Below are positions 1,948 to 56,537 of a stretch of 64,000 bases of DNA, piece by piece; position 1 is the stretch's first letter; each line of letters opens with the position of its first letter. The stretch is from Actinomycetes bacterium (GTDB taxonomy: Bacteria; Actinomycetota; Acidimicrobiia; Acidimicrobiales; Ilumatobacteraceae). A model generated the notes under the pieces. It saw only the letters and a program-made list of their open reading frames with translations. It did no database searches and was not told where the DNA came from. The stretch covers positions 1 through 64,000 of the forward strand of contig JANYDH010000104.1 in assembly GCA_025359865.1 (NCBI GenBank), given 5' to 3'. The position numbers were made by a program, and so were the translations under genes.

Positions 1948-2196
1948 CAGGTTGTCGCGAAATGCTCTTTGGTGGTGCACCGCATGGCCGTAGCCGCAAC
2001 GAAGGCAAGGGTGAGGCGAAACCGTCCGACCTTTGGCGTTGGGCTGCCATTGACAACAACCCAACGCCAAAGCTCAGCCCTCGGGTTGAGTTGAACGCGA
2101 GTTCGGATCGCTGATCGCGAGCACCGGCACACCATTCACATCGGTGAGGTCGGGTTGGGGTGCCGCCACACCCGACCCGCAATGTGCGACAGCCTG
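1948..2196 (-). repeat. Short copy of inner repeat B, with palindrome A nested inside
   Basis: The ends are imperfect inverted repeats: CAGGTTGTCGCGAAATGC at the left and, on the opposite strand, CAGGCTGTCGCACATTGC at the right. The left part matches the right end of the 24.7-kb element (a GTCGC, AAATGC and CTTTGGTGGTG series). The right part, read on the minus strand, matches the left parts of the 24.7- and 56.1-kb elements (GTGTGGCGG, CCTCACCGATGTGAA). Hairpin A occupies 2028-2075 inside it. The whole gene-free stretch 1922-2279 consists of this element plus short flanks leading into the sigK start; no conserved reading frame was seen. Confidence 0.6.
2028..2075. repeat. Palindromic repeat A, copy 1
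   Basis: CTTTGGCGTTGGG (2031-2043) pairs perfectly over 13 bases with CCCAACGCCAAAG (2060-2072), leaving a 16-base loop that contains CCATTGACAAC. The same sequence, not just the same shape, recurs at 6113 and 28320 and as split halves at the ends of two longer elements. There is no T-run after the stem, so it is not a classical intrinsic terminator. Confidence 0.8.
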
Positions 2197-6112: not shown

Positions 6113-6160
6113 GACCTTTGGCGTTGGGCTGTCACTGACAACAGCGCAACGCCAAAGGTC
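6113..6160. repeat. Palindromic repeat A, copy 2
   Basis: GACCTTTGGCGTTG (6113-6126) pairs perfectly over 14 bases with CAACGCCAAAGGTC (6147-6160). After one mismatch the stem continues with GCTGT/ACAGC, leaving an 8-base loop (CACTGACA). This is the most complete copy and defines the consensus. It lies 17 bases after the acyl-CoA dehydrogenase stop and 54 bases before the next start, so it could act as a transcript 3' end or processing hairpin. Confidence 0.85.
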
Positions 6161-24655: not shown

Positions 24656-24671
24656 CCGGCCCGATTCCGGC

Positions 24672-25261
24672 GACGTTTGGCGTTTGGTTGTCATTGACAA
24701 CAGGCTGTCGCGAATTGCGTGTGGAATGTGCCAGCACCGCGATCCGACCTCACCGGTGTGAACGGTGTGGCGTGCTCGACGAATCTGATCATCGTGGCTA
24801 GGGGTTCGTCGCCGCAAGCGATCGACACGTGGAGGCACGTGTGCCTACGTAGCGACACGTGCCTCCACGTGTCACCGCGACCCGCGATTCGAACTCGCCA
24901 CGGCGGAGACCCGGTCCCCAGCCGCTAGTGCGTTCGCGTCGCGGCGTGAACGTTCGGTGTATGACAGTGCGTGCGGTGGAAGCCTGGATCAGCCACCTCG
25001 ACGGCTGTGCGGGGAGGATCGCGTCGACCTTCATGTCGCCAGCCCTGATAACTCGACGCGACTCGGCACCGCGACAACGGGTAGGTCCGGCGGGCAGGCC
25101 GTCAGTCGCCGACGCTGAGTCAGCTTGTGCGGCACAAGCACGAGTTCAGCGACAACCATCACAGCGTTGCCGACCAGACGGCCAGACGGCCAACCTCACC
25201 CCCCACACCACCAAAGGGCATTTTGCGACCGCCTGTTGACAACAGCGCAGCGCCAAAGGTC
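24672..25261. repeat. Long composite repeat: palindrome A split around inner element B (copy at 24.7 kb)
   Basis: 590 bases. The left end GACGTTTGGCGTTTGG, then TGTCATTGACAAC and CAGGCTGTCGCGAATTGC, is mirrored at the right end: on the opposite strand GACCTTTGGCGCTGCG, then TTGTCAACAGGCGGTCGC. The terminal inverted repeats are thus about 45 bases. Inner element B (24701-25235) matches the 56.1-kb copy over long blocks, for example GTGAACGGTGTGGC, TCGACGAATCTGATCATCG, GATTCGAACTCGCCACGG, GGCTGTGCGGGGAGGATCG and CTCGACGCGACTCGGCACCG. Reading frames are not conserved between copies, so it is non-coding. The gene-free stretch 24656-25469 consists of this element plus about 208 bases on its right with no feature I can name. 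Confidence 0.75.
24824..24873. repeat. Near-perfect 50-base palindrome
   Basis: The 19-base arm 24824-24842 (starting GACACGTGG, ending CACGTGT) is exactly complementary to 24855-24873. The 12-base centre is itself partly palindromic (CTACGTAG). CACGTG occurs four times. The 56.1-kb copy of the surrounding repeat lacks this block, so it is an insertion of roughly 60-70 bases into the 24.7-kb copy. Confidence 0.9.
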
Positions 25262-25469
25262 GCCAGTCGCCAAAGGTCGCCGAGTCGCCGAATGTCATGC
25301 CTGTTCGCTCGATGAAGTACGCGTGGATCTGGTTCATCCGTCGTAGCGACGTATTCGGCACCAGCCTCGCTCTGCTCTGCCCTGATATGCAATCCACTCT
25401 GCAAACTCGGACTGCTACGGCTTGCCGAGTCTGCGTCATGAGCACAGTCCCGAACCGCTATCGAATACG

Positions 25470-25892
25470 TCAGGTTGACTGCATTGCGACTGGCATCACG
25501 GTGAGGTCCTTGATAGCGGCAAAGTCCTTGACGTTGATGGTGTAGAGCGGAAGATCGTTTGCGATCGCAATGGCGGCGATTTGGTAGTCGCTGATCCGAG
25601 CGCGTGACGGCCGGCCATGAAGCAGCGCTGTAGCCATGATTCGACCGAAGACCCGAGCAGCCGCGGCGTCATAGGGCAGGGTGGCCGCGCCGAACTGTGT
25701 TTCGATGACCTGCAATCGCATTTGTCGCCGTGCTCGTTCGTCCGCGTCGGTGGCCACCAACGGGCCGACGCTCAACTCCCCGAGAGTGATCGCCGTGATT
25801 GCCTGCTCATCAGGGATCAGTGATTCGTCCATCGCCAGGCCTCCCAGTTCGATGACCACGCACGTATCCAACAGCCCTCCGGGAAGTGTCAT
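25470..25892 (-). CDS. vapC: PIN-domain (VapC-like) ribonuclease toxin
   Basis: 140 residues. Acidic residues of the PIN active site are present: Asp9 in LLDTCVVIE, Glu in ITLGELSVG (about 39), Asp in ISDYQIAAIAI (about 101) and Asp in NVKDFAAI (about 122). It cuts RNA when free of antitoxin. The ATG overlaps the stop of the antitoxin gene (ATGA). The locus lies between the 24.7-kb repeat and the thiolase gene. It appears intact, in contrast to the decayed PIN gene at 55732. Confidence 0.9.
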   Translation of the reverse strand: MTLPGGLLDTCVVIELGGLAMDESLIPDEQAITAITLGELSVGPLVATDADERARRQMRLQVIETQFGAATLPYDAAAARVFGRIMATALLHGRPSRARISDYQIAAIAIANDLPLYTINVKDFAAIKDLTVMPVAMQST

Positions 25893-26149
25893 CGCCCGGT
25901 GGCATCGCTGTCGAAGAACGGGTCGAGCACTGCGTCGAGTTGGTCGCGGAACGTCATATGGCTGTCGCGACCTACGCCGCGCAGCGCTCGCAGGACATCG
26001 TCCTTGCGGGCGAACCGCGCCGTTGGCCGATGGGGTATCAAGTCGACGATCGGCTTGCCGCGGTCAGTAATCGTGATCGTCTCGCCGGCCTCGGCGCGTC
26101 GTGCCAGCGCGCTGCTGTTGACATTCAGTTCTCGAAGGCTCGCGTCCAC
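25889..26149 (-). CDS. Phd/YefM-type antitoxin
   Basis: 86 residues from a GTG. The N-terminal DNA-binding part has LRELNVNSSALARRAEAGETITITDRGKPIVDLIPH, characteristic of the Phd/YefM fold; the remaining C-terminal half is the toxin-binding tail. It neutralises the PIN toxin encoded four bases overlapping downstream and, with it, should repress its own promoter through the palindrome at 26168-26179. The -10-like box TACGAT ends six bases before the GTG, so the transcript is probably leaderless. Confidence 0.88.
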   Translation of the reverse strand: MDASLRELNVNSSALARRAEAGETITITDRGKPIVDLIPHRPTARFARKDDVLRALRGVGRDSHMTFRDQLDAVLDPFFDSDATGR

Positions 26150-28319: not shown

Positions 28320-28367
28320 GACCTTTGGCGTTGGGTTGTTGCCAATGACAGTCCAACGCCAAAAGTC
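28320..28367. repeat. Palindromic repeat A, copy 3
   Basis: TTTGGCGTTGG (28324-28334) pairs with CCAACGCCAAA (28353-28363); outer GAC/GTC also match the consensus ends, with one mismatch. It lies 30 bases after the alaX stop and 45 bases before the MFS start. Confidence 0.8.
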
Positions 28368-55954: not shown

Positions 55955-56084
55955 TCGACCGCTTCAACGAAACGTGATGTGCGCTGAAGATCGTGGCCGG
56001 CAGTCGTTGAACGCCGAGACCCTTCCGCCGACCTGTCGTTGTCGGTCCGCAGTGCTCTTCCGACGTGAAGCGCTCAAAATATCC

Positions 56085-56537
56085 GACCGTTGGCGTTGGG
56101 CTGTCATTGATAGATCGTCGCAAATTGCGGATGGAGTGTGGCGGTACCCCGACCCGGCCTCACCGATGTGAACGGTGTGGCATGCTCGACGAATCTGATC
56201 ATCGTGGCCACGTGTTCGCCGCGACACGCGATTCGAACTCGCCACGGCGGAGACCTGCCCCCGATCCCGCCAGTGCGTTCGCGTCGCGGCGTGAACGTTC
56301 GTTGCATGGCCGACGCGTGTGGTGGGAGTCTGTATCAACGATCACGACGGCTGTGCGGGGAGGATCGCGTCGACTTTCACGTCGCCAGCCCCGATAACTC
56401 GACGCGACTCGGCACCGCACGAGTTCAGCGACAAACATGACGCCGTTGCCGGTCGGACGACCAGCGGCAACCCACCCGCAACCCCACCGGACGGCAATGC
56501 GCGACAGCCTGTTGACGACGACCCAACGCCAAACGTC
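56085..56537. repeat. Long composite repeat: palindrome A split around inner element B (copy at 56.1 kb)
   Basis: 453 bases. The left end is GACCGTTGGCGTTGGG then CTGTCATTGA. The right end is, on the opposite strand, GACGTTTGGCGTTGGG then TCGTCGTCAACAGGC. Inner element B (56112-56511) shares long exact blocks with the 24.7-kb copy but lacks the 50-base palindrome and about 130 further bases. Frames are not conserved. The gene-free stretch 55955-56596 is this element flanked by short unassigned sequence: about 130 bases on the left after the toxin pseudogene and about 60 on the right before the truncated oxygenase gene. Confidence 0.75.

Follow-up and report, generated by a model that had tools for sequence, protein, structure and literature searches.

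A 50-bp palindrome as the probable hairpin module of a composite, MITE-like intergenic repeat in an actinobacterial genome

The locus and its composite repeat

We have analysed a stretch of 64,000 nucleotides, referred to here as the window, which belongs to contig C153 in a genome of 4.99 Mb (219 contigs, 96.6% complete). The host is probably a freshwater actinobacterium. The best protein relatives of a thiolase encoded beside the repeat are 83–87% identical to it and come mostly from MAGs labelled Actinobacteria, Actinomycetota, Acidimicrobiales or Ilumatobacteraceae, and it is from the isolate names of these relatives that we read the freshwater habitat. The window contains two copies of a composite intergenic repeat, E1 and E2, and three short palindromes that we refer to as P1 minis (Table 1). 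Close to E1, on the minus strand at 25470–26149, there is also a pair of small neighbouring genes. The upstream gene bears a weak resemblance to Phd/YefM antitoxins, with a score under the Pfam cut-off, and its neighbour has no Pfam match; the two could possibly constitute a toxin-antitoxin pair.

Table 1. Coordinates in the window of the composite repeats, their modules and the P1 minis
Feature	Position	Strand	Remarks
E1	24671–25264	.	composite intergenic repeat holding P2, inverted P1 arms at its ends; boundaries approximate
Left P1 arm	24671–24698	+	TTGACA at inner edge
Module A	24723–24779	+	directly left of P2 in copies lacking B; limits set by the analyst
Module B	24780–24823	+	44 bp between A and P2 in E1; limits set by the analyst
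P2	24824–24873	.	near-perfect 50-bp palindrome, five YACGTR boxes at 10-bp pitch
Module R	24874–24922	+	right flank of P2; anchor ATTCGAACTCGCCACGG at 24887–24903
Cargo Qa–Qd	24923–25215	+	right-hand cargo, common to many copies without P2
Right P1 arm	25236–25264	-	inverse of the left arm, TTGACA at inner edge
E2	56084–56537	.	the 56.1-kb copy; shares the ends, A, R and most of the cargo with E1, has part of B and lacks P2
P1 mini	2028–2075	.	48-bp palindrome of two P1 arms only
P1 mini	6113–6160	.	17 bp past a predicted stop codon
P1 mini	28320–28367	.	30 bp past a predicted stop codon

Read from left to right, E1 consists of a P1 arm, a short inner repeat, modules A and B, the palindrome P2, module R, the cargo and a second P1 arm. 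The P1 arms, which are of the GACCTTTGGCGTTGGG type, bound the element as an inverted pair, and the ends of E1 and E2 match each other when inverted, giving the repeat the terminal inverted repeats expected of a miniature inverted-repeat transposable element (MITE). Also as in a MITE, E1 is only about 0.6 kb long and has no transposase gene of its own. The sole open reading frame of at least 100 amino acids that lies wholly within it (24859–25239, 126 aa) has no Pfam match, and the composite repeat is apparently non-coding. Because each of the two P1 arms has TTGACA at its inner edge, a P1 mini can be read either as the remnant of a deletion between two TTGACA sequences or as a target that received cargo.

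The palindrome itself had been described in a first-pass annotation as 50 near-perfect bases with exact 19-base arms and four CACGTG units, and an inverted-repeat search agrees with this: the two 25-nt arms (24824–24848 and 24849–24873) are 92% complementary with a spacer of 0, the outer 19 nt pairing exactly and 23 of 25 positions pairing overall. To the four CACGTG units, at 24826, 24836, 24856 and 24866, we can add a related fifth box, TACGTA, in the centre at 24846, such that the order is CACGTG, CACGTG, TACGTA, CACGTG, CACGTG and the pitch between all five is exactly 10 bp. In uniform random sequence, 64 kb would contain perfect 19-nt arms with a spacer of at most 20 nt about 5e-6 times, and the DNA hairpin fold of 24780–24923 has a z of -5.4, with none of 200 shuffles as good. 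A search of the window with Rfam at the gathering score returned 0 matches, on which basis we rejected a known structured RNA family as an identity for P2 or E1; an integron attC site or a CRISPR array was weighed on anatomy alone and set aside.

A repeat family in its own genome and among relatives

The first-pass annotation held that the palindrome occurs in only one copy of the long repeat. This is true of the two copies in the window, comparison of which confirms that P2 is absent from E2, but it is not true genome-wide, where there are about 40 near-identical copies. The arm search that the annotation had called for gives 56 exact matches to the 19-nt arm in the genome, against 0 for a reversed-pattern control, and this count led us to discard the idea of a unique feature. 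With up to three mismatches there are 83 matches (56 exact, 21 with one mismatch and 6 with two or three, some of these six probably arising by chance), the control again giving 0. By manual count the 56 exact arms represent 38 places; at 18 of these both arms are exact and at the other 20 only one is, and the number of places becomes 42 once arms with one mismatch are included. The suggestion that long perfect palindromes are usually kept only if new or useful thus does not apply to a one-off; with about 40 near-identical copies, it is a question to be asked of the whole P2 family.

The same counts bear on whether P2 might be an artefact of assembly, that is, a false inverted join at a repeat. 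Although a number of copies are found near contig ends and the repeat does trouble assembly, the same 50-bp sequence is present in mid-contig at many places with differing flanks, and P2 variants differ between copies. The worry is weakened further because the palindrome recurs at as many as 38 places (42 with the one-mismatch arms) in differing local contexts, and we consider an artefact extremely unlikely.

Elsewhere in the genome the modules are found in other combinations, namely A, P2 and R without B, P1 arms enclosing cargo without P2, and P1 arms alone as the 48-bp minis. The sequence to the left of P2 is A in some copies, B in others and neither in the remainder. The right-hand cargo, in turn, is common to many copies without P2, and E1 has the appearance of a mosaic whose left and right parts come from two types of element. 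We note that at two loci (L013 and L016) P2 has flanks that are not recognised as A, B or R; these may be decayed elements or independent placements of P2. P1 half-sites occur 149 times exactly in the genome (control, 0) and, in an inspection by eye of the roughly 100 that were listed, no opposed pair at the spacing of an insertion sequence was seen except for the composite repeats. The P1 mini with perfect 12-nt arms is present in 33 copies in this genome and in none of 149 other genomes of the family, themselves a sample of a larger group.

The P2 family is without a match in the collections searched here, and these comparisons suggest that it is confined to one species. None of 60 relatives, among them 4 congeners, has the 17-nt core of the arm, and the arm itself gave 0 matches in the GTDB and viral collections genome_contigs and viral_contigs, from which records very near our genome may be left out. 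The whole element gave only weak matches in the four congeners (best E 0.008). A plasmid or phage origin of E1 was rejected when neither record set returned a blastn match at E 1e-5, and the PMC open-licence literature yielded no publication that treats these repeats in this lineage. Repeats with at least three other copies account for 1.2–5.7% of intergenic bases in five 200-kb draws from the genome, compared with 0% in two congeners, and repeats with at least one other copy for 7.7–14.6% compared with 0.9–1.6%. The density of exact palindromes in a sample of the genome is not above that in the congener samples; those with arms of at least 15 number 27, against 14 in shuffles, in a count that includes short overlapping palindromes. 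CACGTG is mildly under-represented in the genome although P2 has four (113 seen and 179 expected in a 400-kb sample, L128–L147). We do not regard it as a strongly avoided site, because it ranks only eighth lowest of the 64 palindromic hexamers.

Short, intergenic, species-specific palindromes in tens of copies, some in composite arrangements, are much like the REP and BIME sequences treated in the part of PMC2817692 on which we draw, and P2 might accordingly be taken for a palindrome of the REP type, mobilised by a Y1 (RAYT) transposase. P2 differs, however, in being built from repeated boxes, and the Y1 transposase domain PF01797 has no match in the five genomes of the genus that we searched (our own and the four congeners), whereas the control was positive in 5 of 14 known genomes. 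The transposase search covered the Y1 family, and a Y1 gene flanked by palindromes was rejected on this result; such a gene may have been missed, but this is unlikely because the genome is 96.6% complete. We judge a REP/RAYT system to be very improbable here. The best reading of the family by analogy is that it is closest in style to the BOX elements of Streptococcus pneumoniae which, in the portion of PMC3049150 used here, are composite, with ordered modules of which one varies in tandem copy number, are almost confined to the species and its near relatives, have extensive secondary structure and are thought by the authors to be parasitic. The P2 repeat likewise has ordered modules and a variable number of one of them. 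Unlike BOX, it belongs to an unrelated organism, the module that varies is an array of 10-bp units complementary to itself, and copies often lack entire modules; the likeness does not come from a comparison of module sequences. It also resembles MITEs such as the Correia elements and Nezha, which the same portion mentions, in that it is short, bounded by inverted ends, present in many copies and probably moved in trans, but differs from them in that no partner transposase was identified in the search for a Y1 gene or among the P1 half-sites listed; with regard to a target-site duplication, the inner edges of the P1 arms both carry TTGACA, and the congeners are too distant to supply an empty site. 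A composite repeat with features of MITEs and BOX elements is therefore known as a kind, while the present family has no match in the collections searched, and it has probably spread as a non-autonomous, MITE-like element.

Gain, loss and resizing of P2

We traced the presence of P2 with a 17-base anchor in module R, allowing up to 2 mismatches, that is independent of P2. The anchor occurs at 51 places, which correspond to 49 distinct contexts once two that are cut by contig ends are merged with others; eight contexts were set aside as unrelated to the family and 41 kept. Intact P2 lies directly to the left of module R in 23 of the 41, a rearranged P2 is found in 3, and 15 have no P2, two of these last (L168 and L181) being also without a recognisable left module. 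A strongly diverged P2 was seen in none of the 41. That P2 is either near-perfect or gone is valid for these R-anchored copies only, since partial forms exist outside the set at L008, L034 and L037, along with a three-box remnant at C74:60579.

What is found in place of P2 varies. The junction is GACACGTGTC in L132 and L141, GAGCTC joined to CACGTGTC in L152, L157 and L171 (the commonest, which may go back to a single loss that was later copied or to three similar losses) and GATG joined to CACGTGTC in L156; further junctions occur in L045, L047, L134, L167, L178 and L182, and some junctions cut into A or B. On a tree of the flanks built without P2, which has 37 rows (12 of the 49 contexts, either unrelated or with too little flank, were excluded), the absence of P2 takes 11 changes for 11 rows, with the starred branches forcing at least 4. 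Absence is not clustered on this tree, because 500 of 500 shuffles are as low, although the tree is weak and 23 of its 34 inner branches are open. For 10 of 13 copies lacking P2, the nearest other copy by flank identity carries it, intact or rearranged. Because the junctions vary and the absences are scattered on the (weak) flank tree, it is most likely that P2 has been lost repeatedly from copies of the family, which fits with the instability of long palindromes. The first-pass annotation had left it undecided whether the palindrome was gained in one copy or lost in the other; this was the right question, and the 15 copies of 41 without P2, with their several kinds of junction and scattered placement, make loss the most likely answer. 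In E2, deletion of 24809–24874 (66 bp, with a TCG match) from E1 gives nearly the observed sequence, while in a second parse the last CACGTGT of P2 is retained with one extra T, and on these alignments E2 most likely represents one such loss.

We note that the GACACGTGTC junction, found in two copies, also fits an empty target into which the core of P2 inserted with a 6-bp duplication of CACGTG, and that the argument against gain in general comes solely from how varied the other junctions are. The corresponding comparison with congeners failed because they are too distant: the neighbouring gene is only 71–72% identical in three of them and has no match in the fourth, and no empty site was seen.

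The divergence of P2 bears on the same question. Across the 23 intact copies the arms show a pairwise divergence of 3.1%, as compared with 13.4% (16 A-type copies) or 19.4% (7 B-type copies) for the 25 bases to the left of P2, 23.3% for the first 13 bases of R, which touch P2, and 13.7% for the first 30 bases of R with the anchor included. The arms are thus several times less diverged than the sequence adjoining them, with sharp edges, which one would not expect of a hairpin that is neutral, unstable and of the same age as its flanks. Correction of one arm by the other is disfavoured because it predicts compensated changes, and none of the 14 arm substitutions in the 23 intact copies is compensated in the other arm. 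We also rejected gene conversion around the hairpin, which predicts a gradient of divergence, yet the first 13 bases of R are already at 23.3%.

It might instead be that P2 is a young, small unit that moves into copies already in place, at a fixed target (GACACGTGTC or a sequence like it), copies lacking it being unoccupied sites. Such a newcomer would account for the step from 3.1% in the arms to 13–23% in the flanks at a sharp edge, for the plain GACACGTGTC in L132 and L141, and for the few copies (L013 and L016) in unrecognised flanks. It sits poorly, however, with several kinds of junction, some running into A or B, that are unlike empty sites, with the three copies that have the commonest junction and yet lack the GA with which P2 starts, and with the fact that for 10 of 13 copies without P2 the nearest flank relative has one. 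We regard it as unlikely, though not negligible.

Not only loss but also expansion of P2 can be seen. L029 and L040 have seven boxes and L012 has five in a changed order, with the 10-bp pitch kept throughout, and the number of boxes in different copies is 5, 7 or 1; this fits with slippage among the 10-bp units that bear ACGTG. The explanation that we favour, and think likely, is that a composite, inverted-end, MITE-like intergenic repeat has multiplied in one species with P2 as its hairpin module, and that the hairpin has been lost and resized repeatedly through replication slippage. The hairpin would form while the DNA is single-stranded in the course of replication, and the polymerase would skip it between short repeats. 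A skip between CACGTG units, from the first to the last, would leave GACACGTGTC, and one between other short matches would make a larger deletion, while the same slippage could add whole units of 10 or 20 bp. E2 would have arisen by a loss of this sort.

Genomic placement and possible function

Genes were placed with the analyst's simple gene caller in a 464-kb sample. Each of the 17 P1 minis in this sample is centred between predicted genes; two run into a gene end, by 2 bases in one case and 23 in the other, and several are no more than 30 bp from a stop codon, including two of the three in the window. With respect to P2, 33 copies were placed, of which 13 are too near a locus end; 19 of the other 20 are intergenic and one is inside a predicted open reading frame. 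The 19 intergenic copies lie between gene pairs that are convergent (8), tandem (7) or divergent (4).

This placement is one of several observations that would be expected if P2 were kept for a function, its five helically phased YACGTR boxes being bound by a protein or its hairpin acting at transcript ends. Convergent pairs account for 8 of the 19 usable intergenic cases but for 24 of 173 spacers in the sample (p = 0.005). This count, however, omits the 13 of 33 copies near locus ends and the one in a predicted open reading frame, and it is affected by the fact that elements lengthen the spacers they occupy. In 33 copies, rearranged ones left out, changes are found at 12 of 990 box positions and 32 of 660 spacer positions (p = 1.3e-5). 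The contrast comes from the variable centre, with 13 of the 32 spacer changes falling at one position, and inside the arms the figures are 11 of 792 and 8 of 462 (p = 0.64); selection on the boxes within the arms is not supported. Although the pitch of exactly 10 bp persists even in rearranged copies, tandem duplication of a 10-bp unit would also yield it. In addition, 15 of 41 copies do without P2, and a triple-box array with 96 matches in our genome has none in the four congeners, the reversed control having 3 in one congener. Taken together, we hold retention for a function to be improbable. More specifically, a DNA-binding protein of the species might keep a phased five-box YACGTR array nearly invariant while the surrounding repeat drifts, in which case the repeat would spread binding sites to gene ends and slippage would set the box count in steps of a whole helical turn; to this we give a lower chance still.

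Whatever its origin, the family places in one genome dozens of near-identical hairpins at known positions alongside naturally deleted and expanded versions of the same hairpin, and so offers a ready record of the ways in which a long palindrome is lost and reshaped in a chromosome. The sharp step from a nearly invariant hairpin to a diverged flank is the puzzle that it raises.

Copies of P2 lie within a few hundred bases of the ends of contigs C10, C13, C60, C70, C129, C149, C184, C190, C208 and C218, and because copies are found near contig ends the family seems to break the assembly. Lastly, in L132, L141, L039, L025 and L011 module Qb is present as a direct duplication of about 57 bp with about 16–17 bp between the two, whereas the window copy has a single Qb; this is another length polymorphism of the repeat family.
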